Positions 3,729-33,172 of a stretch of DNA of 64,000 bases are shown piece after piece (positions within the stretch are counted from its first letter, which is position 1; the number at the start of each line of letters is the position of its first letter). The DNA is from Dillenia suffruticosa. Taxonomy: Eukaryota; Streptophyta; Magnoliopsida; Dilleniales; Dilleniaceae. Location of the stretch: assembly GCA_033439265.1 (NCBI GenBank), contig JAVTVX010000019.1, positions 2,239,501-2,303,500 on the forward strand, given 5' to 3'. The notes beneath the pieces are model-generated. The model saw nothing but the letters and a program-made list of their open reading frames with translations. It was not told the origin of the DNA and ran no database searches. A program made the translations under genes and the position numbers.

Positions 3729-3738
3729 CTCTGTCTCC
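3729..3738 (+). repeat. MULE target-site duplication, left
   Basis: CTCTGTCTCC, repeated exactly at 11908-11917 immediately outside the other terminus. Ten bp falls within the usual 8-11 bp for Mutator-like elements. Both flanks are CT-rich, so part of the match could be chance. Confidence 0.75.
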
Positions 3739-3905
3739 GAGAAATGTACCAAAATAACTTTTTAAAAAAAAAAATTTAAAAAAAACCTAAGGGGGAAAAA
3801 ATTTCCCCAAATGACCCATATTTGTCGCGGGTTGAACCCGCGACCGTATTTGTCGCGGGTTGAACCCGCGACAAAGCCACATGTTGCATCCCGGGAGGGT
3901 TTCGA
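3739..3905 (+). repeat. MULE left terminal inverted repeat
   Basis: Pairs with the complement of 11660-11907. Shared blocks in order are the GAGnAATnTACnAAAATnAC terminus, AACCTnAGGGGGAAAAAATT, CCCCAAAT, the 21-nt GC palindromes, and GACAAAGCCAC followed by a G-rich GGGTTTC block. The left arm is shorter because it has two palindrome units where the right arm has five. Confidence 0.8.
3824..3872. repeat. Two 28-bp palindromic subterminal repeats (left)
   Basis: Identical 21-nt units at 3824-3844 and 3852-3872, each an inverted repeat GTCGCGGGTT-GAACCCGCGAC, spaced with a 28-nt period. The same unit recurs five times near the right end. Possible roles are transposase binding or a methylation target; this is inference. 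Confidence 0.85.
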
Positions 3906-5776
3906 GCGTGTCAGGCTTTCCGCGTTTTCCCAACGTGGAAAGCCTGGCCTTCCAGTCAGGCCGCGATACGTGGCATCCGCATTCTTCACTCGGCTTCACT
4001 TCTTCTCCCATTTTTCATTCGAAGTCTCCGCTTTCCTCTCCTCCTCTCCTCCTCTCCTCTCCTCTCCTCTCCTCTCCTCTCATCTTCTCTCACGCCTCTC
4101 CTCTTCTGCAAACGAAGAACCCTAACAGAAGGGTCCCGAATTTTTCTAGATCTATCAATTTAGAGGAAAAAAAAGCTGCTGAAATTGCTGAAATTATTGG
4201 AGCATTCAAGATTAGACAATATTTTGTCCAAAAATTTCAAAGGTATAAAATTTTTCCTATCTCAATTTAAATTATTTTAGATGCATAATTTTATAATACT
4301 GTGTATTTGTAAATACAATTGATATTTTAAACTCAGTAGATTTGTATGACATTTACTGTTAATTTTTAATTAATGACATTTTTAATTAGGTTTTAGTGAG
4401 ATTAATTAATTTAATAAATATTAAATATGTAGTTAATATAAATTAATATGAAATAGTAATAGTTATATTAAACTAATAACTATTATAAAAATTATAGTTG
4501 AAATTATTTTAAATGACTATAATTATATTAAATGATTTTTGATTAAAATAAAAAATTTTAATATAAATGACTATAATAATACTTATAAAATAATACTTAT
4601 AAATATTAATGTTGATGTTTAAAAAATTTACGTTAAAATATTTTAAATTGAACGATTATATTTAAAATTAAAATGTATTAACGTGTAAATGGTACAATAT
4701 ATTAATATTTTTAGTTTAATATAAAAGTATTAGTAAAAATTAAAAATATGTATCAATTTTTTTTAATAATTTAAATTTTTATTTCAAAATTATTTAATAA
4801 ATGATTTTAGTTAATATTTAGTAATTTAAATCAAAATATTAAAATTATTAAAATTAGTATTTGTATGAAATTGAAAATTTATTTTTATCATTCCATTATT
4901 AAAATTAGTATTATAAATATAAAGTGAGTTTAGGGTTTTAGATTAAATTTAAATATAATGAAGATTAAAATTTTGTTAGTAGTAAGTTAATATAATAATT
5001 TAGTAGTAATTATATTTTTATTGGTATTTTTAAATAAAAATAGTAATAGTTATATTAAACTAATAATTATTATAAAATTTGTAGTTTAAATTATTTGAAA
5101 TGACTATATTAATATTAAAATATTATACAATAAATTTAAAAATTTTAATATAAATGCCTATAATAATACTTAGAAAATATTATAAAATATATATTTACAA
5201 GTTAAAAATTACAATGAGGTAAATTAAATATTTGAAAATACTTTTAAATATTTTAAAAAATTATAAATTAATACTTTCAAAATACTTTCAAAATATTATA
5301 AAATATTATAAATTTTAAAATTTAAAATAAATGACTATATTTAAATATTTTTAAGTGATCATATTGTAATTAATGACTATATTAATCTATATAAAATTTG
5401 TAATTTAAATTATTTGTAATGACTTTACTTATATTAAAATATTATAAAATAAAATAAAAAGTTTTAATATAAATGATTATATTAATACATATAAAATATT
5501 ATAAAATAAATATTTATAAATTATGAATTAAATTTAGAAATTAAATATTTGAAAATACTTTTTAAATATTTTAAAAGATTATAAATTAATACTTTAAAAA
5601 TAGTATTAAATTTTATAAAATTTAAATTTTAAAATAAATGAATATATTTATTGTTTTAATAAATATAGTATTTATTGTTTTATTAATTGATTTAATTTTA
5701 AATTGTTGAATTTTTTGTATGTTTGTTTAATATTGATAAAATGTATAATTTATTTTTTTTTTATATTTATAGAATA
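3906..5776 (+). other. MULE 5' region: CT-rich leader and probable long intron
   Basis: 4015-4095 is a CCTCT-type pyrimidine tract, then a leader-like stretch ends with CAAAG|GTATAAA near 4242. About 1.5 kb of very AT-rich DNA follows, ending with TTTATAG just before the ATG at 5777. This looks like a 5'-UTR intron of the transposase gene. 3936-3950 holds a degenerate copy of the CCGCG-type hairpin found at the right end. No protein-coding signature is seen. Confidence 0.45.
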
Positions 5777-8344
5777 ATGGCGGATATAGTAAGTCTGTTA
5801 TGTTATAGCAATGGTGAAATTGTGACGGGAGACGATGGAGTCCGTTATGACTGTGGTCCAACAAAGTTGATTAGGGTACGGAGAAATTGTAATTTTACTG
5901 AGTTGCTGAAAGTAGTATGCAAGGGTGTTCGAATAAATCTGTTGAGACAACATGTAGAGATTTTTCATCGGTTTCCCGTGTCGTATATGGGAGCTGGTAA
6001 TGTAAAGGTTTGAATTGGTTCCGATAAGTGATGAGGACGATATTTTGAATTTGATGGAATTTGCGATAACTAGGGGAGTGGGTGGGACTATTGAGTTGTA
6101 CATAAAATCATATGATGGTAGAGATTCTATAGTACAAGATTGTGATTATATGGAAGATTATCCGCATATCGAATCTCGAGTGGATGTTGCTTTTGCAGAC
6201 GTAGATAATGATGTTGATGAGGAGGAAATGGCGGAAGAAGAGGCAGAAGAATATAATGAAGATGAAGAGGGAGATGATGAAATTGGCGATGGGAGTGGTG
6301 GCGGTGGTGCAAACCAGTTAATGGTCGGGCCTTCGTCAGTGTCTATAAACATTGGTGGTGGTAGGAGATATGGGGGCGGTGGAGTAGAGGAATCCATATC
6401 ATTCATGACGATCGCACCGGGTGGTGATGGTTATGTGAGATTTGAGGAAGAACACAGATTGACATCTGATAGCTGGAGTTTCAGCGACGAATTGAAAATG
6501 GGTATGAGATTTGAGTCGAAAGAGCAGCTTATTCATGCTGTTAAAATGCATCATGTTGAACACCACTATCAATTTCGGGTTGGTAAATCAACCCCTGAAC
6601 TTTGGACAGCAATTTGTATGCAAAGGGAAGAAGGTTGTACATGGAGGTTGCGTGCTTGTAAAACACGGTTACTTGGTGCATTTGTGATTACAAAGGTCGA
6701 GGGACCCCACACATGTGTGAATGCTGGGTTGACGCAGGATCATAGGCAGTTGGATTCAAATTTGATGGCTAGGCATTTGCTTAATTATGTGAGGGAAGAT
6801 CCCAGCGTGAAAGTTTCTTTTCTTCGAACTGTTATGACCGAGAGAACGACATATGCAGTTTCTCGTAGAAGGGTTTGGGCAGCAAAGAGAAAAGCTATAG
6901 AGATGGTTTACGGGGATTGGGATGAATCTTACAAACAACTACCTCAGTTGTTAAATGCAATAGTGGAAAAAAATCCAGGGACACAGGTAAATTGGAAGTT
7001 GGGTCCACCTAATGCCAGAGGGGAACAGGTTTTTGAGGCTTTATTTTGGGCATTCGGTCCGAGTATCTTGGCTTTTAGGAGTTGTAGACCATTGATAAGT
7101 ATAGATGGGACTCACCTTTATGGGAAATATAATCACAAATTGTTGATTGCATGCAGCATGGATGGAGCGAATCATATTGTCCCGTTGGCATTCGGATTGG
7201 TAGATGGAGAGTCACTCGCATCTTGGTCATGGTTTTTGCGATGTGTGCGAGAGTCAGTTGTTCGAGATAGGGAAGGTCCCATTTGTTTAATTTCAGATCG
7301 ACATGAAGGGATAAGGGCAACAGTTGTATGTCCAGAGTTCGGATGGTCACCTCCCAATGCTGTGTGGCGATTTTGTATTCGTCATGTCGCTAGTAACTTC
7401 AACACGCACCACAAAAGTCAAGCTTGTAAAAGAGTCGCTACGATTACCGCGTTGCAACCACTGCGGAGGAAATTTGATTTATATATGGCGAAGATGAAGG
7501 AGATTAAAGAAGACGCTCCTGATTATTTTGCAACTATTTCTCTGGAACAATGGACTCTTTCTCATGATGGTGGTGTTCGTTTTGGATATATGACCACAAA
7601 TATTAGTGAAAGTTTTAATGCCGTGTTAAAGGGGGCAAGAAATCTGCCGGTTTCTTCTTTGGTACTTAAAACTTTTTATAATTCCGTTAACTATTTTCAG
7701 ACTCGTTTGGGAGAGGCGAATGCGGGAATTGGAAGAGGAGAGCGGTACACTAAATATACGTTCGCCATGTTAGGCAGATGGATGAATACGGCTAACCTTC
7801 ATACCATCGTTTCTTTCAGTAGGGAGCATGGGATATTCGAGGTCGAAACTGGGAATAGACAGACACGGTATGGGTACAAGGGAGGCAATAAACACATTGT
7901 CAATGTACGGGAAAAGCATTGCACATGCGGGAAATGGCAAACTTATAAAATTCATTGCTCTCATGCAATTGCTGCATTAACACGGACGATAATTGATGTG
8001 CATATGATCGTCGAAAAATGGTATACATGGGAATATCAACTTAAGGTTTATGAGCGTAATTTTTTCCCCATTGGAGACCACTCGGCATGGCCCATTGATT
8101 CCTACCCTACAATAATTCCCGATATATCCCTGAGACGTCAGAAAGGAAGACCTAAATCATCTCGATATCACAATGAGATGGATCTTCGAGGATCTTCGAG
8201 GATCTTCGAGAATCTTCGACACGGACATCATGCGGTAGTTGTAGTGCTGAGGGTCATAATAGGAGGAGATGTCCGAGAAAAATGAGGTGCGGACTTTGTG
8301 GTCGAGAGGGTCACGATCGAAGACATTGTCCAACAACAAATTAA
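5777..8344 (+). pseudogene. mudrA-type MULE transposase, two frameshifts
   Basis: The N-terminal segment (ATG 5777, about 79 codons) has the character of the PB1-like leader of plant MULE proteins. It hits TGA at 6011-6013; the frame from 6015 continues the family pattern, consistent with a one-base indel near 6006-6011. The main 756-residue ORF (6015-8285) has an acidic stretch (residues ~65-95), an N-terminal MuDR-type DNA-binding region (~155-235), and a DDE/RNase H-like core: D~364 in ISIDGTHLYG, D~428 in CLISDRHEG and E~532 in TTNISESFN. A SWIM zinc finger CTCGKWQTYKIHCSHA lies at ~636-651. Two CCHC zinc knuckles (CGSCSAEGHNRRRC and CGLCGREGHDRRHC) lie in another frame at 8231-8344, cut off by a 10-bp tandem repeat. 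It would catalyse cut-and-paste transposition; this copy is probably inactive. Confidence 0.9.
8171..8210 (+). repeat. 10-bp tandem repeat causing a frame change
   Basis: Four units of GATCTTCGAG, the last with two changes, inside the transposase 3' coding end. Ten is not a multiple of three, so gain of two units or loss of one accounts for the zinc knuckles being out of frame. Confidence 0.85.
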
Positions 8345-8573
8345 TGAGATTTTCTTGTATTTGTATGATTTTCTAATTATTGTACTTCTTAATGTATACT
8401 ATATTTTGAAAATTTAAACATGTTGCTGTATTTTTTTTATTATGCAATATATAACATATTTTTCTGAATATCAGATTTTCTTTTTGTGCATTGAATAATG
8501 TGGTTATATATTATTAATTTTATTTGTACATTTATATATTTATGCTAATTATTATACTTTTTTAAAATTTCAG
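8345..8573. other. AT-rich spacer between the two MULE genes
   Basis: Non-coding and T-rich. Likely holds the transposase 3' end and the PMD promoter or leader; AATTTCAG lies directly before the PMD ATG at 8574, so a leader intron acceptor is possible. Confidence 0.4.
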
Positions 8574-10505
8574 ATGGATCTCGGACCTACTGATCCGAGT
8601 CTTCTACGCTTGCAGCAAGGACACCGCTCTACTAGAGTTTGGGAGGGAGATGATACTGATTGGCTTGTCTGCCGTAGACGTGAGGCAGTATTACGACGTT
8701 TTGGGCATGACCATATTGACGATAAAGTAGTTCCTCTCCTACAGGCGTCGAGCTTTTTGGGGGTCGCTCGACTTCGTTTTATACAGTTGGATTGGCATCT
8801 CATCACGACTCTAGTGGAGAGATGGAGGCAGAAGACACACACATTTCATATGCGCCACGGTGAGCTTACAGTTACGTTACAAGATGTAGAAGTTATTTTA
8901 GGTTTACCTTTAGATGGGATACCCGTTATCGCTAGGACAACGGGTTTCTCGTGGATTGGGCTGTGTCAGAGATTATTAGGTGTTATCCCTCCTCGCTCGA
9001 CTTTTAAGGGTCATTCATTGAGTATGCCATGGTTGTCAGATTTTATAGGTCACTTGCCCCACAATGCAGAATATGATCATATTTTGCGATGGACACGGGG
9101 GTATATATTACTATTGATAGGGGGTGTTTTATTTTCTGATAAGAGTGGTTATTATGTACATTTACAGTATTTATTAGTATTAGAGAATTAAGATTACTCT
9201 AGTCGTCGTAGTTGGGGTTCTGCGTGCTTAGCTTACTTGTACAGACAGCTTTGTATAGCATCGCACGCAGATTCGCATGAGATTTGTGGGGCTCTGATTC
9301 TTTTACAGATTTGGGCATGGGAGAGATTTTCATGTATTGCTCCTATTAAGCAATCTATATATGTCGAGGGGGATGGCCCATTGGCTTTGCGGTGGAGGAC
9401 GGAATTTGATGTCACTTCCCTTTCTACACACGTCGTGACAGTGTATAGGGAGGCATTAGATAGATTGACGAACGATGATATCGTGTGGCAGCCTTACACT
9501 GAGGACGTGTTATCTTCCCTCCCCGATTATTGTCATGAGGGTAAGGATATTTGGCTGGCTCGGGTACCGCTTATCTGTTTCTCTATTGTAGAGTGGTACT
9601 TTCCAGATCGAGTGATCCGTCAGTATGGAGGAATTCAGGTCATTCCGGATCACTGCGATACTGAAGATCGATTACACGATATTAGCTTGCGTGGTTCACA
9701 GGAGATAGATTGGTCAGTCGAGTATGCCCGTTACATCGAGATTTGGAATCACCGATGGGATTATGTAGTCCCTATTGACACGTCAGTTGGACCCACTGTC
9801 CATAATTCTTACACCACATGGTACCGCACCATCTCTCGTATATTTATTAGTCGGCATGACACTTGTTTGGGATATGTGGTAAGTGTGTAATTTAAATTTT
9901 TTTTATTTTTTTTTTAATTTCATTTTTTATTTTTTAACTAACGTGTATCGAGATCTTTATAGCGTGATTCACTACATCAGATGCGAGAAGACTCTGAGGA
10001 TGTTCATATCCGTGGAATAGCGGATACAGCCATATCAGCTTTGAATGATGACATGACATATCTCCTGAGACCTAGACATCCTAGAGGTCGTGCTGAGAGA
10101 GGTGACGAGGAGCATCGACCTCGACGGAGCCGAGCGCGACAACGTCCGAGGGCATCTACTCATGATGCGTCACCATTTCCATCTCAGCATCCAGAGGACG
10201 TTGTAGGACCTTCGAATACATTTGAGGACTCCTCTTCTTTTTATACACCAGTGTTTGAGTTTCCTCATTTTTCTACTCCTGACGCCCCACAGAGGGGCAT
10301 TCGTATAGTTGAGGGACAGACACAGTTTCAGAGAAATGATGCACACACGATGTACCATGTTTCTCCTCCTCGTTTTAGTGACGTAGGACCCTCACAGATC
10401 ACACAATTACATGATATGGGTTTATCGTCCCAAGTCGACACTACATATATCAGGACAGATTTAGATGTTATACGTTATGATACAAGAAGGCGACGACAAC
10501 GTTAG
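8574..10505 (+). pseudogene. Plant mobile domain (PMD, MAIN-like) gene in a MULE, with internal stop
   Basis: Exon 1 (8574-9878) is one frame of 435 codons interrupted by TAA at 9189-9191; frame and similarity continue past the stop. A GTAAGT donor and a CTTTATAG acceptor join it in phase 0 to exon 2 (9963-10505). Without the stop it would be about 615 residues. The N-terminal part matches the plant mobile domain (aminotransferase-like PMD family; homologues are often labelled 'serine/threonine-protein phosphatase 7 long form'), with LTVTLQDVEVILGLPLDG at ~100-117 as the hallmark. Exon 2 encodes an Arg-rich, low-complexity tail. Cellular PMD proteins MAIN and MAIL1 act in silencing and genome stability; TE-borne PMD genes are known. 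Its role in transposition is unproven. Confidence 0.85.
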
Positions 10506-11519
10506 TTATATATTATGTACTTTATATCCTATATTATATTAATAATAATTCGATTCATTTATATATGTTCATTTCTCGGATTTTATTTGTTTCGTTTCTC
10601 CTTTTTGTTTTATTTATAAGAAATTAGTTTTTTTTTTCAAATTGTTATTTTACTTTAACTGTTTAGATAATACACATATATCGATAATATCGTGCGTCCG
10701 GCCCATTACACCGCTGGTTAACCGTTGACTCGCGGACGGGTCTGGTGGATATACATTTAATTATTTTAATTTATCAAACCACCATTACGAGTGTTATAAG
10801 GGATAACATGCAAAAATATATATATATAGATATATGACAAAATAATAAATTATTATTAGTTCACTTCTCTAAAAATTCTAATATTTATTTTTGTTTGTAA
10901 TTTTAATTATTTTATATATTTATTTATAATTTAAATAATTTTAATATAACTAATGGTTAGCAGTTTATGTTACAATTATTTTGAAAATTAAAATCAATTC
11001 GTTATATATTCATTCTCTATTTTAAAACTCCATTGATATTGATTATTTATGCAATATGATATTATTTTTATATTAAATTAATCAAAAATGAAAAATAATA
11101 TATTAAAATATAATGAATCTTAACATATAATTTTTAGATACTAATACTAGTATTTTGTAATGTTACAATTTTTTTCAATTATGAGAATTTTTTGTCACTA
11201 TTTTTTAATTTTTAAAAATTCTTAGAATTATTTTTTAATTTTGTAATTTTTCATAAAATTATAAAGACAAACTAACCTGATTTATTTTAATTATTATAAT
11301 ACATAATTTTGGATCATCTAAATTAGATATAATTACAAAAATTGAAATTAAATATAATTACAAAAATCGAATTAAAATAATTAGGGGGTAAAACAATTGG
11401 GAGATTAAAACAATTTAGAGGGGGGAATGGCGTGCGTTTTTTGGAGGGAATGGCGTCCGTTTTTGGGAGGGAATGGGGTTGGGTTAATGGCGTGCGTTTT
11501 TGGGGGGGAGGAGGCATTT
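10506..11519. other. MULE 3' AT-rich region
   Basis: Non-coding, AT-rich DNA between the PMD gene and the GC-rich right-end array, with one short GC-rich island at 10690-10740 (CGTGCGTCCGGCCC; GACTCGCGGACGGGTC). From about 11380 it becomes G-rich on the plus strand (GGGGGGAATGGCGTGCG repeats). The reading frames that stay open here and in the array are by-products of repeats. Confidence 0.5.
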
Positions 11520-11666
11520 CCGCGTTTGCAAAACGCGGAATGGGGTTTCCGGATAGGGTTTCCGCGTTTCCAAGACGCGGAGTAGGGTTTCCGCGTTTCC
11601 AAGACGCGGAGTAGGGTTTCCGCGTTTCCAAGACGCGGAATAGGTTTCCGTGTTTCCAAGGCGCGG
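11520..11666. repeat. 29-bp CCGCG hairpin array (right end of MULE)
   Basis: Units start at 11562, 11591, 11620 and 11648, each with CCGCGTTTCCAAGACGCGG or a close variant (6-bp stem CCGCGT/ACGCGG). A related hairpin CCGCGTTTGCAAAACGCGG lies at 11520. Period is 28-29 bp. The left end has only one degenerate counterpart. Confidence 0.85.
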
Positions 11667-11907
11667 AAACCCCCCCAGCCAACACGTGGCTTTGTCGCGG
11701 GTTGAACCCGCGACAAATACGGTCGCGGGTCCAACCCGCGACAAATACGGTCGCGGGTCCAACCCGCGACAAATACGGTCGCGGGTCCAACCCGCGACAA
11801 ATACGGTCGCGGGTCCAACCCGCGACAAATACGGGTTATTTGGGGAAATTTTTTCCCCCTCAGGTTTTTTTAAAAATAAAAAAAGGGGTCATTTTCGTAT
11901 ATTGCTC
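11660..11907 (-). repeat. MULE right terminal inverted repeat
   Basis: The complement of this arm aligns with 3739-3905; the outer 21 nt differ at only five positions. It is longer than the left arm because of three extra palindrome units. Confidence 0.8.
11694..11826. repeat. Five 28-bp palindromic subterminal repeats (right)
   Basis: Palindrome units start at 11694, 11722, 11750, 11778 and 11806, each of type GTCGCGGGTCCAACCCGCGAC, joined by AAATACG. The first unit has the TTGAA centre found in the left arm. The perfect 28-bp period suggests recent unit expansion. Confidence 0.9.
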
Positions 11908-11917
11908 CTCTGTCTCC
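11908..11917 (+). repeat. MULE target-site duplication, right
   Basis: CTCTGTCTCC, identical to 3729-3738. Confidence 0.75.
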
Positions 11918-12160
11918 CTCTCTCTCTCTCTCTCTCTGATGCCTCACATGTCCGTTTCATGGCCACCGATAAGTCCTCCGATACCTTAATCCAATGCCGG
12001 AGAGGATGGATCAAACAATGATGGTGATGGATCCGGTGAATGATCAGCAGGCTTCTTCGTTCACAGTGGCCATGATTTGTCCTTCAATTCGGCTGATTCA
12101 GTGATGATTCATGGTGGGAATCGAAAGATATTGCAATTGGATTATACAGAGGAGAGGAAA
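11918..12160 (+). other. CT leader and possible 5' remnant of a gene hit by the MULE
   Basis: A (CT)n tract runs straight out of the insertion site, followed by ATG at 11961 with a 20-codon frame. A second frame open across about 12044-12200 contains SGHDLSFNSADSVMIHGG and runs into the minisatellite. Neither is recognised. The picture fits a leader and first exon interrupted by the MULE and then degraded, but it is only suggestive. Confidence 0.25.
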
Positions 12161-12635
12161 GGAGAGAGGAGGAGAGAGAAGAGGGAGGGACGGGTCTTGA
12201 CCTTTGAGGTGGTTTGATTTGAGAGATGGTAATCTTTTCTCCACTGTGGCCGGAGTGTGCAAAGGAGAGGAAAGGAGAGAGGAGAGAGAAGAGAGAATGA
12301 TGGATTTTGACCTTTGAGATGAGTTTGATTTGCGAGATGGTTATCTCCTCTCCATGGCAGCGGGTGTGTGCAAAGGAGATGAGAGGAGAGAGGAGGAGAG
12401 AGGAGAGGGGGACGAATCTTGACCTCTGAAATAGGTTTGATTCGTGAGAGGCTCTTCTCCACGGCTGTCGGAGTGTGTAGAAGAGAGGAGAGAGGAGAGA
12501 GGAGGAGAGAGAAGAGAGAGGAACGGATCTTAACCTCTGAGATGGGTTTGATTCGAGAGAGGCTCTTCTCCATGGTCGCTGGAGTATGCAGAGAGGAGAG
12601 GTGAGGAGGGGAGGACAAAGAAGAGAGAGAACGAA
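12150..12635. repeat. Minisatellite, ~111-bp unit, about four copies
   Basis: The landmark CTTGACCTTTGAGnTGnTTTGA recurs near 12196, 12307, 12418 and 12528, a period of about 110-111 bp. Each unit also holds a GGAGAGAGGAGG-type purine tract and a CTTCTCCAnnG block. Open frames across it on either strand are by-products of the purine-rich repeat. Confidence 0.85.
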
Positions 12636-15639: not shown

Positions 15640-16261
15640 AGAAAAAGAAACTAAAATATAAGGGAAGGAAAACTCCGAGGCTCGAGGCTTTCTTTCTCTA
15701 TATCTCTCTCAGACCCAGGAACTTGGAACACGATATTAGAGAGACACAGAAGCGAACGAAGAAGAAGAAGAAATACGAGAGGGAGAGAGAGAGAGAGGAG
15801 AGAGAGAAGAAGAGGAAAAAGACGAACGACTCGAGAGTTCGAGGTACGAGAGAGAGATTTGATCCGCTTGGTTTTCGGGAGTTTCTTTCCCGTATATTTG
15901 GATTCAGAGCTCGTGAGTTTCGTTTCTCGATCCACCGATTGAAATTTCTTCTATTTTTCTCGTTAAGTTCTCTTCAATTCTTTGTTTTCCTTTGTTTCGA
16001 ATCTGTATCGTGGTTGGATTTGAGGTTTGGGGTTTCAATTTGAAAGCTTTGGGTTGTGTTTTTTTTTATGGAAATTTGGTGGTGAAACCCTACATTTGTC
16101 ATCCCACTGATTGGTTTGTTGTTTGTGTTTGAAATTCTAGGGTTTTGCGTGGATTGATCTCTCGCTGTGAAGTGAATTGACTATTTGAAGTATGAGCATT
16201 AATAGCCCCAGATAAGGGGAGAATTAGGGTTTCGCTTGTTCGAGTTTGGACTGGATTTTCC
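15640..16261 (+). promoter_or_regulatory. ATXR3 5' leader region, probable leader intron
   Basis: From about 15640 the DNA becomes leader-like: a pyrimidine-rich block at 15688-15710, then GA-rich tracts to 15815. A GTGAGTTTCG donor-like site at about 15913 and a TTCTAG acceptor at about 16140 could frame a 5'-UTR intron. No clear TATA box is seen. Transcript ends are inferred. Confidence 0.45.
16192..16215 (+). other. Upstream ORF in the ATXR3 leader
   Basis: ATG followed by six sense codons and TAA (peptide MSINSPR), ending 46 nt before the ATXR3 ATG. It lies downstream of the likely leader-intron acceptor, so it should be in the mature mRNA and could dampen initiation. Confidence 0.5.
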
Positions 16262-19200
16262 ATGGGCGATGGCGGCGTCGCATGCGTGCCTTCGCAGGTC
16301 ATTATGGAAAGGTTTACAATTTCGGAGACGTTTTGTGGAGGCAACAATGGTGGAAATTCGCTCAATTGTGCAAACACAGACACTCGGCGCAAGAAGAAGA
16401 TGAAGAAGGTTGTGAAGAAAGTTATAGTGAAAACGAAGAAAGTGGTGAAATCAGAGAAGGGCAGCGAATTGGGGTCCGAGAAAGGCAAGACCAGTAAAGA
16501 AGTTGTTGGGAATGGTGAAGTTTGTAATAATGATGATGATAAGCAGGTAGCAAAAGAGGAAGTTGAGGAAGGGGAATTGGGGTCATTGAAGTGGCCTGCT
16601 GGTGCAGAAGTTGAAAATGGGGAATTCGTTACACAGGAGAAAACACCGGAGAAGCCATCAACCAGAAAGAGTGAAATTGAAAAGGGAGATTTTATTCCTG
16701 ATAGGTGGAGGAAAGGTGACGTTGAGAAGGGAGAGTTTGAGGCAGGAAAATGGCGAAAAGGAGAAAGAAATGATGATGGGTGGAGAAGGGAGTTTACTCC
16801 AGAGAGAGGTAGAAATTGGGAGAATGAGAAATCAGATTCATGGAGAGGATACAAAGATGAATTGGAGAAAGGAGAGTTCATCCCAGATAGGTGGAATGTG
16901 AGAGATGAATATAGTTTTCCTAATAAAACAAGGAGACATGATGCAGTGAGGGAAAAGGGGTGGCGTGAATATGATCGCAGCACGCCACCTTCCATTAAGC
17001 ATTTTAATGAAGATGTTGGGCAGAGGAAGGAATTTAGTAGGACTGGAGGACAGAATGGAAGAAGCTCATCCACCTGGGAAGCTGGACAAGAGAGGAATTC
17101 AAGGATTAGTTCGAAAATTGCGGATGATGAAGGTGTCTGTAAGGATGACTACAGCAATGGGAAGAACCATGGGAGGGATTTCTTAGCTGGACCTCGTTCA
17201 AAGCGGCACGGAAGTGATGCTGAGAGTGGCGACCGCAGACTCTACAGTGAGTATGGTGATTACTCTACATCAAAGAGCAGGCGACTATCTGACGATGGTT
17301 GTCGTTCCTCTTACTCAGAGCACTATTCCCGGCACTCCGTGGAGAGGTCTTATCGAAATAATTCTTCATCTTCACGGTTTCCTTCCTCAGACAAGTACTC
17401 TTCAAGGCATTATGAATCTCCCTTGCCTTCCCGAGTACCTTATGACAGGCATGGTCTTAGCCCAAGTCAGTCTGAGCGATCCCCACGTGAGCGCCCACGG
17501 TACCATGAGCACCAGCACCGTGACCGGAGCCCGTTCCGTCATGAAAGGTCTCCATATGATCGAAGCCGTCATTATGATTACAGAAAGAGGAGCCCTACTT
17601 ATGCAGACAGGTCCCCAGATAGAACTCGGCATCATGATCGCAGGGATCGGACTCCAAACTACTTGGACCGGTCTCCACATGATCGGGCTAGGACAAATTA
17701 TCCTCGAGAGCCAGCAAGGAAGAGTGGAGCTGGTGAGAAACGACAAAGTCAGGGCAATAAAGGGCAGGAAGAGAAACTGAATCAGAAAGATGGTGCAAAG
17801 GATTCAAAAATTTTGGCTAAGGAACTCATTGATAAAAATGGTTTGCGGAATGAAAATGAATCAGTTGAGAAAAATGCAAGCTGTCAGCCTGTCAAAGAGG
17901 ACCGGGGTCAAATTGCAAATCTGGATTGCTCAGAACCTCCTCAGAGTAATGGAGTTGCTGAAGATTTGCAGTCCATGGAAGAAGATATGGATATATGTGA
18001 TACACCACCCCATGGGTCGGTTGTGGCTGATTCGACCTTAGGGAAGTGGTTTTACCTCGACCATTTTGGCATTGAACAAGGCCCCTCAAAATTGAGTGAT
18101 ATTAAGAAGCTCGTTGAGGAAGGGTTTCTTGTGCCTGATCATTTAATCAAGCACTCGGGGAGTGACAGGTGGGTATCTATTGAACATGCAGCCTCTCCAT
18201 TGGTGCCTGCAAATTTTCCACCTGTCGTGTCTGACTCTGTTACTCAGCTGGTGAGCCCTCCAGAGGCTCCAGGGAATATTTTATTGGATACTGGAGATTC
18301 TGGACAGCCTAATCAGGTGTCGGAGGAAGCACAAGGAGTATCTTCTCAGCCAGTGGTGTCAGAAGATGGCAGGTTGGCTGCAGTCGAGCCATTAGAAGAT
18401 TTTCATATTGAAGAAAGAATTGGGTCCCTCTTAAAGGGCATCACCGTCGTACCTGGCCAGGAGCTTGAGACACTTGGGGGTATTTTTCTTATCCCTGATG
18501 ACTTCTGTAGCTTTTCTGTCATGTTCATGAATGGTCCTTTATTGTATAATTCTCAGATATTTTAATATGAATAATTTCCCTGAATTGGCACCATCTTATC
18601 TTGCAGAAATTCTTCACACAACATTTGAGCATACAGAATGGGAAAAATGGGGAACTTTTCAAGGTATTGCTAATATCAAATGGACTATTGTCCTTTTTTT
18701 TATTGTTTTTACCCTAGCCAACGTTGGACTATATTGGTGCTTATCATGTTATTGCTGCTGTATTGGGGCTGTCTCAAATATGGACGGGTGTGCTATATCT
18801 GAGACTAGATATCTCCCAACGTAATATTTGGTGAATTTCTTGTTCAGGAAATATGTCAAACCGGGAAAAATAACGTGACTGAATCTAGCCTAGACTAAGT
18901 ATATGTTGTAATATCAAGGCTTTCTGCATCTTGAGTTGCCAATAATGTCTAAAGATATTGCCCTTTTAAATTTCTAGGCCAGCATCAAGCAAGGCCGATT
19001 TTGCTATGTGCATCTATTGATTTGTGTTAGTGATTTCATCTTAGTTATGGTCTTGAACTATGTTTCATCCGGCCACAATGCCTCAGGAGATCTCTGTGAG
19101 GGTGGCTTTACATTGGCTGATGACTTGGACGATGGTCATCTCATGCTATCTTTTATTGAACCTACAAGAATATTTAGGTTCTGTCTAGTGGCCAGAGCAT

Positions 19201-22200
19201 TGTCAAATAAACTTTCAGTTTCATCAATTGAGAGATGATGTGCTTAGTAATTCCTTTATGTTGTCTGTTTTGTTTTGTGGGGTATTATTAATTGGAGATC
19301 TCAGAGAGGTAAAATCAGAAACAGTCCGCAGCTGAATTCGAATGATATTTGATATCACATGCATACAAATTCAAATTTATGTGGACCTGCAAATTTTGTT
19401 ACGATGTCAATTTGTTGTCTAGAAGTTTTAGATTTGGAAGTCTAGTGGTACAGCTATATTTTTGAAGCTTAATCTGCAAACTGTTGGCCATACATGCATT
19501 TTGCCTCTCAAGTCCTTGACAGATACTCATTTTGATCATGTACAGGTTTCACCAGCCCTAGGGCTGAGAGCCGGGAGCAATGTGAACAGAAGACAGATGA
19601 GGACATTCTGAATTGTGCTGAAACAACAAAAGAAAATGATGGATTGAGGTTTAATGCATCCTATGACAAGGACTATCCTTCTGCACATGTTGATCCAAGT
19701 GACTGGTTTTCTGGTGGATGGTCCTGCAAGGGTGGGGACTGGAAAAGGAATGATGAAGCTGTACATGATAGATCTTTTAAGAAGAAAATTGTTCTCCATG
19801 ATGGCTATCCCTTATGCCAGATGCCAAAGTCTGGGTATGAGGATCCTCGGTGGCATCGAAAAGATGATTTGTACCATCCTTCTTTTGGCAGAAGACTTGA
19901 TCTACCACCTTGGGCTTTTTCCTCTCAAGATGACAGGAATGAAAGCAGTTCTGCAAGCAGATTTGTGCAAAATAAGTCTGTTAATTTAAGGGGAGTGAAA
20001 GGAACTATGCTTCCTGTAGTCAGGATAAATGCATGTGTGGTGAAGGACTGTGGATCATTTGCGTCTGATCCTCGCTCAAAAAGTAGAGGAAAGGACAGAC
20101 ACTCATCTAGGTCCACTCGTCCCCATTCTTTGAGTGTTGAATCCAAGAGATCTTCCGGTGATGTTGATTCCCTCATTGGAACTATTCATGAGCAAGGTTC
20201 AAGAAGCTCCTCGAAGTCAATTATGTTTATTAACATCCCAAAGGACCATGTTTGCACAGCAGAAGAGTTGCAATTACATCTCGGTGACTGGTATTACCTT
20301 GATGGTACTGGGCACGAGCGAGGTCCTACATCATTTTCAGAGCTGCAAGCTTTAGTTGATCAAGGTGTTATTCTGAACTCCAGTAGTGTGTTTAGGAAAT
20401 TTGACGGACTCTGGGTTCCTATTACTTCTGGAACAGAGGCCTCTGACAATACTGTAAAAGCTCTACATGAGAAGAGTGCAACATCTGGTGATTCAGCCCA
20501 ATCTGTTGGTGCTGGCTTTGTTGAAAAAATGGTCCTCTCTTCCTTATTTCATAGTATGCATCCACAATTCATTGGATATACCCGTGGGAAAATTCATGAA
20601 TTGGTCATGAAATCTTACAAGAGTCGGGAGTTTGCAGCAGCCATAAATGAGGTACTCGATCCATGGATTGGTGCAAAACAGCCGAAGAAAGAGATGGATA
20701 AACACTTGTTTTCTCCATCTTCCAGTCAATCAGGTGAGTTTCTTTCTTTTCTAACTTTTATAAGTTCATCATTTTGTCTCAAGCTATCATAAACAATCTT
20801 GTGCTCTTGGAGAAAACTCTTCTCCAGAGTGGGTCACATATGTTGCAAGGAGCCTTCACTCATTTTCCTCAAAAGAATATTTTTATGTTGCATACTTGAT
20901 GCATATGATTATGGTCAGGATGAAACGATGACAAATATTCTTCAGTCATTTCCGTGTCCTTTGGTGCAATGTTGATATTACTAGCTCCTTTCTCTTGCAC
21001 TTTTCCTATTTTCTGGAATCTGATTTGTTGTTATCATATTCATTATTACTATCTTTATCGGGATTATTCCTTTGTCTTGCTGACATTTAACTTTCATGTC
21101 ATGTTTTTCTTTATGGTGTTTTCCTGAAATCATATTTCTGCAGATTATTTTCGTGCTGCGAAAAGGGCCAGGATTATGGCAGATGGGAGTGATGAAGACA
21201 ATGAAGGGGAAGACCTCCTGGGAGTTCAGAGTGACTCCACATTTGAGGACTTATGTGGTTACTCCAAACTTCACAGAGATGAAAGCTTGTGTTCTGAGTC
21301 TGAGGTTGGAAGCTGGGGTCTTCTGGATGGTCATATTTTGGCTCGAGTTTTTCATTTTCTGAGAGCTGATTTTAAATCCCTTGCCTTTGCTGCTTCTACT
21401 TGTAAGCACTGGAAAGCTGTAGTGAGGTTTTACAGGGATATTTCTGTACAGGTTGACTTGTCAGAGTTTGGGTCCAGGTGCAATGATTCCATTATCTTGA
21501 ATGTCATGGTAAGGTTTGATTCTAGAAAACATTCTTCTGGAAATTTTTCGTTTTTTTCGTGCTTACTATACTTCTCTGATTGCAGAATGGTTACAAAAAG
21601 GAGAAGATAACATCCATGGTACTTGTTAATTGCACCAACATTACATCCAGTGTGTTAGAAGAGTGTATCCGTTCTTTCCCCAGCATCTCCTGCATAGATA
21701 TCAGAGGTTGCAGTCAATTTGAAGACTTGGCATGTAAATTTCCAAATGTGAACTGGGTCAAAAGTCGTAGTTTGCATGGCAGAAAGATCTCTGAGGACTC
21801 ACTATCCAAGTTGAGAAGTCTTAAGCAGATAACAGAGAAAACATCAACAAATTACAGATCTAGCAAGGGTATTGGAAGTCATGTTGATGATTCTAATGAA
21901 TTAAGAGATTATTTTGAGATGGTGGATAAGCGAGTCTCTGCAAGCCAATCATTCCAACAGAGCTTGTACAAACGTTCGAAGCTGTTCAATGCCAAACGGA
22001 CCTCCTCCATTTTATCTAGGGATGCTCGTATGATGCGACTGGCACTTAAAAGGTCTGAGAATGGATATAAGAGGATGGAAGAGTTTCTTGCTTTCTGCTT
22101 GAAGGACATTATTAAGGAAAATACATTTGACTTTTTTGTGCCTAAGGTACAGATGTCTTTTTGATCTTAGGCATGGTAGAGATGGTCTTTATTTGTTCTT

Positions 22201-25200
22201 GAACAGATTAATCATTGTTTATATCTCGCCTTGTGGTTCAGGTTGCTGAAATTGAGAATAAAATGAAGAATGGTTATTATATTGGGCATGGCTTGAGCTC
22301 AGTCAAAGAGGATATTAGTCGAATGTGCAGGGATGCAATCAAGTAGGCTGTTTCTTTTTTTCTTTCCATAGCTTATTTGCTCAATTGCCCTGTGGCATGG
22401 TGCTTCTAACTCATTTAAATCGTATGAATAACTGAAAAGGAACCTAGGACTAAATAGCTTGCCTGTGAGGTTTTGACGTGCAAAGAAATTAACGAGCCAG
22501 CCAGGTGTTGTGGAGGACCTCTGTGTAGTTCTACATTTTTTTTATACCTTAAATTCTTGAAAATTGAAATTTCTTCAGCTTTGATGTTTCTGTACGGATA
22601 TTTGGCGTCAATAATTAGGGCATTTGCAGTTTGTGCTAAAAATGACTAAAAGATATATATATATATATATATTTTGGTGCTTTGCACATTGCCTCACTTT
22701 CATTATGAACTTTGTTTTTATCTTGCCGTACTATTATGGTTCACTTTCTGCATTTTTTTACCTTTAGAACTTGATAGCTTCTTTATATTACATGATTAGG
22801 ATCATAATAATCACCATCAGTGCTTATTGGTTTTAGAGAGCTTATTATACTGGTTGTTACAATGATGATATGGTCCTATATATTGAGTGATCTGTGTTCT
22901 ATGGATGCAGGGCAAAAAATAGGGGTGAGGCTGGAGACATGAATCACATCATTAGCTTATTTATCAAACTTGCAACATGTTTGGAGGAAAGTGCAAAGTC
23001 TTCATATGAAAGAGAGCAATTGATGAAGGCATGGAAAGATAGTTCATCCACCAATTTCTGCTCTGCCTTTGCACAGGACAAGAAGAAGCACAGCAAGCTT
23101 GTGACTGACAGAAAATACAGGAGTAATGGAACTGTGTTTAGCAATGGAGATACTGATTGTGGGTATACATCTGATCGTGAAATTAGAAGACGTTTGTCCA
23201 AATTGAATAGAAAATCATTGAACTCTGGAAGTGAAACATCTGATGACCAGTCCTCCGAAGGTACCAGGAGTGATAGTGAGAGCACTGTCTTAGACTCAGA
23301 AAGTGATTTGGATCTTCATTCTGAGGCTGGAGGCAGGGACTCAAGACTAGAGGGATTCTTTATGGAAGACGAGAGTCTAGATTCGACTGAGGATCGTGAA
23401 TGGGGTGCTCGCATGACAAAAGCAGGCCTTGTTCCTCCTGTTACTAGGAAATATGAAGTTATTGATCAATATCTTGTCGTAGCAGATGACGAGGAGGTCC
23501 GTAAGAAGATGCGTGTTTCTTTGCCTAAGGACTATTTGGAGAAGCTAAATGCAGTCAAAAATGGTACTGAGGAATCTGAATTGGAAATTCCAGAGGTAAA
23601 AGATTATAAACCTAGAAAGCAGCTTGGAAATGAGGTATTGGAGCAAGAAGTTTATGGTATAGATCCTTATACTCATAATCTTCTACTCGATTCCATGCCT
23701 GAGGAACCGGATTGGCCTCTTCTAGATAAGCATTTGTTTATTGAGGATGTGCTTTTGCGGGCTCTGAATAAGCAAGTCCGGCGCTTCACTGGCACTGGAA
23801 ACACACCTATGACATACCCTTTGCAGCCAGTTGTGGAAGAAATCCTGAAACAAGCTGAAGAAGAACACGATCAACGAACTGCAAAATTGTGCCAGAGTAT
23901 TTTGAAATCCATTGACAACCGCACTGATGATAACTATGTTGCTTACAGGAAGGTATTTATGCACATGGCTCACTAGTTGCACAAGAGAGATTTTTAGTTG
24001 ACATTGTTTTTCCATATTTTTGCTATTTTAGTCTAGTCGGCTTTTAATATGCTTGCTAGGATTGATTTGGGTTGTGGCCCAGGGATTAGGTGTGGTTTGC
24101 AACAAGGAAGAAGGTTTCGGTGAGGATGATTTTGTTGTGGAGTTTTTGGGTGAGGTATGAATATTGTTTCCATTTCCATTTTCTCCTTTTTTCAGTTTAC
24201 TGCTTTCAGTTGGTTTGGCTGATTATTTGAAAACATTTAAATTTCATGGTGTTAATAGTTGTTTTGTGTTCTAAATCCAAAGGTTTATCCTGCTTGGAAC
24301 TGGTTTGAAAAGCAAGATGGAATTCGATCTTTGCAGAAAAATAGCGAAGATCCAGCACCTGAATTCTATAACATTTATCTTGAGAGGCCAAAGGTATGTG
24401 TATGAGAATTATATTCGCTCCACTGTAGTTTTTATTTGTTTTCTTGCTTAAAAAGGTGTTAATTAAATTCCTTTTTCTTCTTTCTGTTTTCTGAAAACAG
24501 GGTGATGCTGATGGTTACGATTTAGTTGTTGTTGATGCAATGCACAAGGCCAACTATGCCAGCAGAATTTGTCACTCGTGCAGACCTAATTGTGAGGCAA
24601 AGTAAGTTATGTTTCATTTTTGTTCATTCATTATATTTCATCTTGTTCAACTTTAAGCAGTGGCTTTGCATGAAACCTTGTTTCATTTAGCAAATTTTGT
24701 GTTCCTTGAAACATAAGGTGTTCAAATGAACAAAAATGTAATATTATTTTACAATTGCTGTATATCATACATAAACACATGCATATTTGTGCATGTATCT
24801 TGCTATGTGACTGTGCTTATATAGGTTGATGGGAAAGGCTAATTGTATAGCACTGCATTCGCAAGTTCCCTGGGGCTGAATTTTTAATGAGTTTCTTCAA
24901 TCTCCTGATTTCCTGCATACGGACCTCCTCTATCTGGATGCAGTCCGACCAAACTGTAGAAGCTGAATGTCCATGGGTTATTAATATATTTCAAATTACA
25001 TATTTTAAAGGAAGACAATAGGTGTAATTCTGCGAGTCCTTTTATCTTCAATTTTTATGATCACATTATTGTTCTCCCTAATTAGTTTATCTCAATAACT
25101 ATCAGTTATGTAAATGTTACAATCTGAGTTCCATAATTGACCTTTTTTTTTTCCTTCTATACCCTATATCTTGAATCAGCTGTCTTTTTATTCAAATATC

Positions 25201-32093: not shown

Positions 32094-32132
32094 CACGTGT
32101 CCTTTCCTCAACGTAACGCCAAGCTTATATAA
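32094..32132 (+). promoter_or_regulatory. G-box and TATA box of the bHLH gene
   Basis: CACGTG at 32094-32099 and TATATAA at 32126-32132, 45 nt before the ATG. Spacing places transcription start near 32160, giving a short leader. A G-box is a bHLH/bZIP target, so self- or cross-regulation is possible (inference). Confidence 0.65.
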
Positions 32133-32176
32133 TCCCCGCTCTCATTGCCTCTCACTATCTTTCACTGCGACGAATT

Positions 32177-33172
32177 ATGGAGAGAGATAGAGACTATAAC
32201 TCTTGGTTAAACGGTGAAGCTTCGTCAATGTCGATTTCGGACATAATCAATCCGGCTATGAATTTTCCTCCCTCCTCCTATAATAACTATCTTTTTCCTC
32301 CGCCGGAGAGTCTAGTCGGTGATACGCCTTCTCAGCTAGGGTTCGACCCACCAATTCCGACGTTCGGCTTCTTCAGCGAAGCTTTTCCATCACTTCAACA
32401 CAGAGATATAACCAACACCACCGACGATCAGCAGTTGAAGCAGACGATCGATTTCCACGCCAATTTGAAGCTTCAGATGCCGAAATATGAAGCGCCCGAT
32501 CAGATCGAAGAAGTGATCGGTGAATCTTTCGTAGATAAATCTGAACTGTTTTACTCGAGTTTTGATCAGTTGCCGGATCTCCGATCACTGGAGCAGGTCT
32601 CCGGCGAACAAATTCCGGCGGATTTATCTGCAACTCGTCAAGGTAAACGTCTCCGATCAAACTCGCTCTCCGAGTCCTACAATCTCGACGCGATCCTCAG
32701 GAACTTCACCGTACCACCAAAACCTGTAGATCCTCTTCGAGTGAATCCGGAGCCAGTTCAGGCAATCAATGCTCGAAAACGTCGTCAGAAGCTAAGCGAC
32801 AAGGCGCGAATTCTGCAAAAGCTGTTGCCATGGGAGAAGAAGATGGATCAAGCGACGATGTTCGAAGAGGTGTACAAGTACATCAAGTTCTTGGAGGCTC
32901 AGATAACCGTTCTTCAGTCAATGCCTTGTGAATCAAACTTCGTTTTTTCAAAGGGTAAGGTTGAGGCTGAGGAAGGAGTAGTCTTTGGGGGCTTGGAGAA
33001 ACTGAATCGGCAGCAACTGCTTCAAGCGGTGGTGAATTCGCCTGTGGCGCAGACCATGCTTTACTCCAAGGAGTGGTGTGTGTTCTCCATTGAGCAGTTG
33101 GCTGTTTTGAGGAGCATTGCCGCCAAAAGGATTCTCCTTCACCACCAGCTCTTGGATTTGAATCAGTCTTGA
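32177..33172 (+). CDS. bHLH transcription factor, bHLH117-like
   Basis: Intronless, 331 residues. Residues ~198-250 form a basic helix-loop-helix: basic part ARKRRQKLSDKARILQKLLPW, loop KKMDQATM, second helix EEVYKYIKFLEAQITVLQ. The C-terminal block (~278-312, including LLQAVVNSPVAQTMLYS) is, from memory, shared with Arabidopsis bHLH117 and its relatives. The first ~150 residues are Ser/Pro/Asp-rich and look disordered. The E-box-contacting Glu of classical plant bHLH proteins is not apparent (Arg at that place), so DNA binding may be altered or need a partner. It is a nuclear protein by family. The start is the first ATG after the TATA box; stop at 33170-33172. Confidence 0.9.
   Translation: MERDRDYNSWLNGEASSMSISDIINPAMNFPPSSYNNYLFPPPESLVGDTPSQLGFDPPIPTFGFFSEAFPSLQHRDITNTTDDQQLKQTIDFHANLKLQMPKYEAPDQIEEVIGESFVDKSELFYSSFDQLPDLRSLEQVSGEQIPADLSATRQGKRLRSNSLSESYNLDAILRNFTVPPKPVDPLRVNPEPVQAINARKRRQKLSDKARILQKLLPWEKKMDQATMFEEVYKYIKFLEAQITVLQSMPCESNFVFSKGKVEAEEGVVFGGLEKLNRQQLLQAVVNSPVAQTMLYSKEWCVFSIEQLAVLRSIAAKRILLHHQLLDLNQS

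Follow-up and report, generated by a model that had tools for sequence, protein, structure and literature searches.

A decayed Mutator-like element of Dillenia suffruticosa belongs to a recently active family that keeps a Plant Mobile Domain gene beside mudrA

We examined a 64,000-nucleotide stretch of the Dillenia suffruticosa genome, hereafter the window (G000:C19:2239501-2303500, from a genome of 596 Mb in 37 contigs), in which a Mutator-like element (MULE) occupies positions 3739-11907. Between its terminal inverted repeats (TIRs), the element carries a mudrA transposase gene and a gene with a Plant Mobile Domain (PMD; PF10536), placed in tandem on one strand. A 10-bp target site duplication, CTCTGTCTCC, is identical on both sides (3729-3738 and 11908-11917) and abuts the termini without a gap, a placement drawn from the sequence and from the ends of relatives. 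The termini read 5'-GAG[A/C]AAT[G/A]TAC[C/G]AAAAT[A/G]AC, and the two ends differ from each other at four positions within the outer 20 nt. A repeat search delimits the left TIR (3739-3872, + strand), which holds two 21-bp palindromes, GTCGCGGGTTGAACCCGCGAC (3824-3844 and 3852-3872), and, together with comparison of the ends, the right TIR (11778-11907, - strand); within them lies an inner inverted repeat of 98 nt that is 94% complementary (3775-3872 with 11778-11875). Since the flanks are CT-rich and the ends differ at four positions, the window by itself is inconclusive on where the element ends.

The mudrA gene (5777-8344, + strand), delimited from open frames and comparison with relatives, is broken in the window copy. 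Its frame shifts twice: once near 6006, and a second time somewhere between ~8180 and 8230, a segment in which a 10-bp unit recurs four times. The open reading frame (ORF) at 6006-8285 has Pfam matches, all on the + strand and all exceeding their curated cut-offs, to the Mutator DNA-binding domain DBD_Tnp_Mut (PF03108, 6489-6683; E = 6.8e-8), the MULE transposase domain (PF10551, 7095-7397; E = 7.6e-16), and the SWIM zinc finger (PF04434, 7896-7985; E = 1.3e-6). With this transposase, DNA-binding domain and zinc finger, TIRs, and a duplication of the 8-11-bp class, the element has the features by which MULEs are recognized. Two zinc-knuckle-type motifs, found by eye at 8235-8340 (+ strand) and presumably of the CCHC-like kind, are in a different frame from the main mudrA ORF of the window copy. 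Upstream, an AT-rich stretch (4243-5772, + strand) with donor AAAG/GTATAA and acceptor TTTATAG is, going by its sequence, probably an intron in the 5' untranslated region of mudrA.

The second gene begins 229 bp past the end of mudrA with its own ATG, and PMD is its sole Pfam match. Exon 1 (8574-9878, + strand; Pfam, open frames, and relatives) contains an in-frame TAA at 9189-9191, flanked on either side by Pfam PMD matches (E = 3.3e-31 and 7.1e-47). Comparison with relatives places an 84-bp GT..AG intron of phase 0 at 9879-9962 (+ strand), followed by exon 2 (9963-10505, + strand; open frames and relatives), which encodes the C-terminal tail. The first-pass annotation, made from the window alone, had described a complete MULE with mudrA and PMD in tandem on one strand. 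The tandem arrangement stands, with Pfam domains of both genes on the + strand, and the element is complete in structure, having its ends, its duplication, and both genes, but not in coding capacity: with the mudrA frame broken twice and a TAA in PMD, the window copy is unable to make either full protein.

We then turned to other copies in the genome. A genome-wide search for PF10536 gave at least 125 matches at no fewer than 117 places (117 of 1,535 candidates scored). Ten kb were taken around each of the 20 best-scoring PMD places other than the window, a sample that leans to intact PMD, and five further 10-kb loci (L029-L033) were also chosen for open PMD frames. Eighteen of the 20 best loci are full-length relatives of the window element, 93-97% identical in long BLAST matches, which together with it make up family A; the other two (L009 and L026) are host PMD genes. 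Order and strand of mudrA and PMD are the same in 23 of the 25 loci, the remaining two being these host-type genes. All 18 relatives share the window element's termini and are flanked by exact duplications (10 bp in 11, 9 bp in 7) whose sequence differs by site. End finding permitted a shift of up to 4 bases and duplication lengths of 8-11 bp; 16 of the 18 required no shift, and 2 were 1-2 bases off. The agreement of 18 of 18 relatives rules out chance ends in a CT-rich tract, and upholds the earlier claim that the TIRs and the 10-bp duplication, exact in the window, fix the ends.

PMD is intact, that is, in frame and free of internal stops, in 13 of the 18 relatives, mudrA likewise in 13, and both genes in 11. 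Eleven copies (L014-L022, L025, and L027) are only 0-0.2% apart, nine of them with both genes intact; judged by this divergence, the cluster is a very recent burst. The most divergent members are the window copy and L012, 1.8% apart from each other and 2.2-2.9% from the rest. L029, L030, and L032 are further family-A copies, each with a broken mudrA. Using the left terminus as the query, independently of PMD, we found at least 79 matches (40 of 775 candidates scored), 40 of which cover at least 120 of the 142 bases. Two of these 40 are right ends of PMD-bearing elements. In 32 of the 38 left ends that remain, a PMD match lies on the same strand, 3.5-7 kb inward, and in one more (C37:10360195) it lies, by arithmetic, 1.7 kb inward, giving 33 of 38. 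At this last locus (G000:C37:10357572-10360337), the element is apparently shorter, retaining PMD but perhaps not mudrA. The other five left ends (C24:12341385, C21:14988281, C34:13143855, C24:6752772, and C16:626865) have no PMD among the matches listed, the PMD list being incomplete, and PMD-less MULE families were not part of the search.

Two of the further loci, L031 and L033, form a second family, B, of 6.3 kb with termini GAGCTTTGTACGGAAATAACAT; its duplication is 10 bp and exact in L033, and 9 bp with a single mismatch in L031. L033 has both genes open. Family B is 75% identical to family A in mudrA and 57-58% in PMD, and gene order, strand, and the position and phase of the PMD intron are identical in the two families. 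Between L014 of family A and L033 of family B, PMD has a dN of 0.279, a dS of 1.416, and a dN/dS of 0.197 (bootstrap 0.139-0.256), and mudrA a dN of 0.143, a dS of 1.155, and a dN/dS of 0.124 (0.095-0.154); values of dS above 1 are imprecise, and the ratio between the families is nonetheless far below 1. The dS of 1.42 for PMD and 1.16 for mudrA are compatible with one shared split. By part, the PMD domain, with a dN/dS of 0.17, is under tighter constraint than the C-terminal tail, with 0.29, though the limits overlap.

A between-family dN/dS of 0.20, combined with a gene order, strand, and intron shared by both families, argues that PMD is long established in this MULE lineage and retained under purifying selection as gauged by these substitution rates. 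The earlier proposal that the element keeps its PMD gene is thereby strengthened, and a single recent capture lacking purifying selection, or differing ends at other copies, which would have spoken against it, were not found as far as tested. We are highly confident that the copy in the window has decayed and that it comes from an autonomous MULE family, active until recently, which as a rule carries mudrA together with PMD.

Inside both ends of the window element, the palindrome GTCGCGGGTTGAACCCGCGAC recurs in tandem 28-bp units, two on the left and five on the right, where chance would give none. The right array (11694-11834, + strand; repeat search) comprises one exact unit and four with one near-centre difference. 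Farther in lies an array of a second palindrome, TTTCCGCGTTT..AACGCGGAA (11517-11668, + strand; repeat search), with five units at 0-3 mismatches and a period of ~29 bp after the first, and pattern matching places an imperfect copy of it, with three mismatches, at 3917-3940 (+ strand). Across 19 family-A copies, the first palindrome is present 1-2 times on the left and 1-5 times on the right. Family B has the same array design in different letters, GTCGTGACTTGAAGTCACGAC and GTCGTGAGTTCAACTCACGAC, the palindrome arms being CGCGGG..CCCGCG in family A and CGTGAC..GTCACG in family B.

In a set of 15 distinct units, pairing holds for 96% of cells (88.6% in shuffles), two-sided changes affect 17 cells (5.9 in shuffles), and the covariation score is 0.294 (0.156 in shuffles), with none of 500 shuffles as high in any of the three measures; sliding the partner arm lowers pairing to 24-45%. 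These units were hand-picked, 12 from family copies and 3 from the genome pattern listing, leaving out centre-only variants, one variant specific to L038, and degenerate units (such as the first unit and a half unit of the L031 left array), and related units may beat shuffles without constraint. The symmetric changes between families support, but do not prove, constraint on the palindromes as compared here. A pattern covering both palindrome types has 635 occurrences in the genome, as against 0 for its reversed control, the pattern being blind to units with other letters; 42 of 50 listed places are symmetric by hand count, compared with 1 in 8 if the arms were free, an excess that shared descent inflates. 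Single-strand DNA folding gave z values of -9.5 and -10.5 for the two arrays, and the dyad symmetry would suit either a site for a dimeric protein or a hairpin.

The palindrome listing also located two foldback derivatives, L037:113-2118 (G000:C2) and L038:109-2201 (G000:C4), which are 2,006 and 2,093 bp long and carry no intact gene. Each consists of two inverted right ends and an inverted piece of the PMD 3' region (window 10413-10682), is self-complementary over the whole element (93% and 90%), and retains both termini with two palindromes per end; the 10-bp duplication is exact in L037 and has one mismatch in L038. Like Mu killer of maize as described in PMC3440606, these derivatives are inverted duplications that include a terminal repeat and could yield a long hairpin RNA. 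They differ from that account of Mu killer in carrying a PMD 3' fragment instead of mudrA, in lying at two sites, and in being known here from DNA alone.

In its best-matching piece, the MULE PMD is ~40% identical to the host loci L035/L036 and to L034, and 25-26% identical to host L009/L026. We take L035/L036 to be MAIL-like. A PMD tree of 11 rows, built without named Arabidopsis references, left 4 of 8 inner branches open and drew long-branch warnings, and conveys rough closeness only. Single-sequence AlphaFold2 prediction of PMD produced no usable fold (pLDDT 33.9), a sequence search of solved structures with one PMD piece returned no relative (best E 1.2), and close relatives were not found in the prokaryote and virus collections searched. 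As for the host-type genes themselves, L009 and L026 adjoin a WBSCR22-type methyltransferase frame (by Pfam on L009, with the same frame in L026), and L009/L026 and L035/L036 are near-duplicate pairs, which suggests an old genome duplication. At L034:256-1389, a PMD open frame has an N-terminus that by eye resembles the N-terminal part of a MULE transposase, where Pfam finds PMD only; the frame is possibly a transposase-PMD fusion.

The presence of PMD genes in MULEs, and the idea that they act against silencing, are already known from published work. Several groups of plant MULEs have been described as carrying PMD, frequently in antisense (Dupeyron et al., 2019; PMC6446971), namely VANDAL (half with PMD and/or DUF), MuDR-9_OS, MULE-Monocots, MDR, MUDRAVI2, and MUDR. 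With the Dillenia element, these groups share a transposase with SWIM, 9-10-bp duplications, TIRs of tens to hundreds of bp, and PMD as a second gene; here PMD lies on the mudrA strand, whereas in several of the groups it is sometimes or often antisense, and the passages of that paper on those groups describe neither selection on PMD nor palindrome arrays. MULE PMD-C proteins of grasses and Amborella, likewise MAIN-like PMDs inside MULEs, led to the speculation about anti-silencing (Ikeda et al., 2017; PMC5418596), later repeated in PMC8616336; those proteins are described as transposase fusions, whereas PMD here lies downstream as a gene apart, having an ATG and an intron of its own. PMDs are further reported in Gypsy elements and MULEs (PMC9289625), and the biology of MAIN and MAIL1 is treated in PMC7156037 and PMC9899485. 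Within the parts of the open-licence literature that our search covered, there is no report of symmetric changes in subterminal palindromes or of selection on a MULE PMD. The palindrome arrays that differ symmetrically between families, and the foldbacks with an inverted PMD 3' piece, are thus leads that we have not seen in print.

What PMD does for the element is the more speculative part of our account. We tentatively favor, at somewhat under an even chance, the reading by analogy in which PMD counters or re-aims host silencing for copies of its family. Intact copies would presumably make MURA and PMD protein, and the latter would work in trans, opposing the host's MAIN/MAIL silencing or re-aiming it so that the ends of family copies stay transcribable or accessible. 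The palindromes would be sites at which element proteins, possibly a PMD dimer, recognize their own family, and old copies would lose both genes and then decay. The logic would be that of VANC in VANDAL elements with an unrelated protein. VANC targets tandem motif arrays in noncoding parts of transposable elements (PMC5735166), and VANDAL21 with VANC (PMC5735166, PMC10398659) has in common with the Dillenia lineage the MULE superfamily, a transposase plus an extra protein, and noncoding tandem motif arrays, which are indeed present here. It differs in that VANC is another protein, the second gene here being PMD in Pfam, and in that its motifs are described in one orientation and without palindromes. 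The CpG observed/expected ratio is 1.2 for the element, 0.92-0.95 for mudrA and PMD, and 0.57 outside; this speaks against CpG loss long ago, and such kept CpG would suit youth or little past methylation.

A number of results count against this anti-silencing reading or against selection on PMD. Within family A, three pairs of intact PMD genes gave dN/dS values of 0.31-0.48 that are weakly resolved, with upper limits of 0.65-1.3, so that the ratio first called for is clear between families and has wide limits within one. Against decaying copies, PMD dN/dS is mostly 0.8-0.9, with outliers where changes are few, as expected if selection acts only on active copies. Family B comprises two loci only, and mudrA is interrupted in L031. 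For the palindromes, two of the five measures do not stand out: pairs with two-sided change number 3 (2.0 in shuffles, 134 of 500 of which are as high), and there are 7 pair types (7.4 in shuffles, 457 of 500 being as high). Stops in decayed copies (TAG 136, TGA 122, TAA 20) are of the C-to-T type, their mix being nearer the C-to-T expectation for the gene (23:20:1) than that for other single changes (53:40:43), which indicates that decay takes place regardless of any protection of young copies by PMD. An excess of C-to-T at CG over CHH is absent in most aligned copies (L013 excepted), a result that does not speak for or against methylation. No exact match to the host DOWN motif, CATGCAGTTT, occurs in the window, and there are seven one-mismatch matches where 5.5 are expected, only one of them in the element; with neither exact matches nor enrichment, we reject the idea that PMD acts through this motif. 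The ends of VANDAL elements are described as degenerate, whereas those of the window family are long. Lastly, Muta1, a MULE of Aedes aegypti, is also reported to have subterminal tandem repeats (PMC5225508), and the arrays here may therefore be the transposase's own; Muta1 resembles the Dillenia family in its long TIRs, subterminal tandem repeats, and many short derivatives, and differs in having 12-bp repeats and a transposase only, the account of it making no mention of PMD.

The strongest alternative, which we regard as rather unlikely, is that PMD is an accessory factor for transposition, needed for cutting, insertion, or target choice, and that the palindromes bind transposase or a MURA-PMD complex with silencing uninvolved. 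The mudrB gene of maize MuDR is regarded as such an accessory transposition factor. The gene pair keeps one order and strand in two families, the gene-less foldbacks retain the termini and two palindromes per end, so that the arrays resemble cis signals for movement, and subterminal repeats have precedent in the mosquito MULEs (PMC5225508). Set against this, the best-studied PMD proteins, MAIN and MAIL1, are reported to act in transcription and silencing, and plant MULEs without PMD are described (sub-group MUDRAVI; PMC6446971), so PMD is not generally needed for movement. Sequence alone cannot separate a role of PMD in anti-silencing from one in transposition.

The ~40% identity to L035/L036 noted above makes heteromers conceivable, and host MAIN, MAIL1, and PP7L are reported to interact in Arabidopsis, on which basis PMD might instead be a competitor that poisons host MAIN/MAIL1/PP7L complexes and loosens silencing in general, its own copies not being recognized as such. 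We hold this to be improbable, given that losing silencing across the board should be harmful to the host.

A more elaborate version of self-recognition is a long shot on the sequence comparisons presented here. A PMD dimer would bind the palindromic arrays and shield the family, protein and sites would change together, and the foldbacks would be Mu-killer-like triggers that silence the family. Were it true, PMD would have a direct function, sequence-specific dimeric DNA recognition, that would explain how MAIN and MAIL are targeted. MAIN and MAIL1 matter for silencing and development (PMC8616336, PMC9899485), and this lineage, with its PMD under purifying selection and a fresh amplification of copies intact in both genes, offers a compact system for asking what PMD does, with a natural protein, candidate sites that differ symmetrically between two families, intact copies, and gene-less derivatives; if PMD recognizes the arrays, the same logic could be extended to MAIN and MAIL1.

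That PMD is a recent neutral passenger is highly improbable: MULEs often capture host genes, and in PMC5418596 the case is made that they took up PMD-C twice, but a dN/dS of 0.20 across two families at a dS of 1.4, the shared intron and order, and intact genes in most copies of the newest burst lead us to reject recent neutral capture and, on these comparisons, contradict a passenger for this lineage, unless each family acquired PMD on its own from conserved genes that were close relatives.

Around the insertion, the window contains a tRNA gene at 1378-1450 (Rfam) and, ~240 bp to the right of the element, about four GA-rich tandem units of 111 bp (12150-12629). Downstream, 16196-23973 holds open frames of at least one gene, two of them with ATXR3 GYF domains, and the first long open frame of the gene with these domains lies ~4.3 kb past the end of the element. 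ATXR3 is, going by its family name, presumably a histone methyltransferase. An open frame at 32117-33169 has a weak helix-loop-helix match that falls just below threshold.

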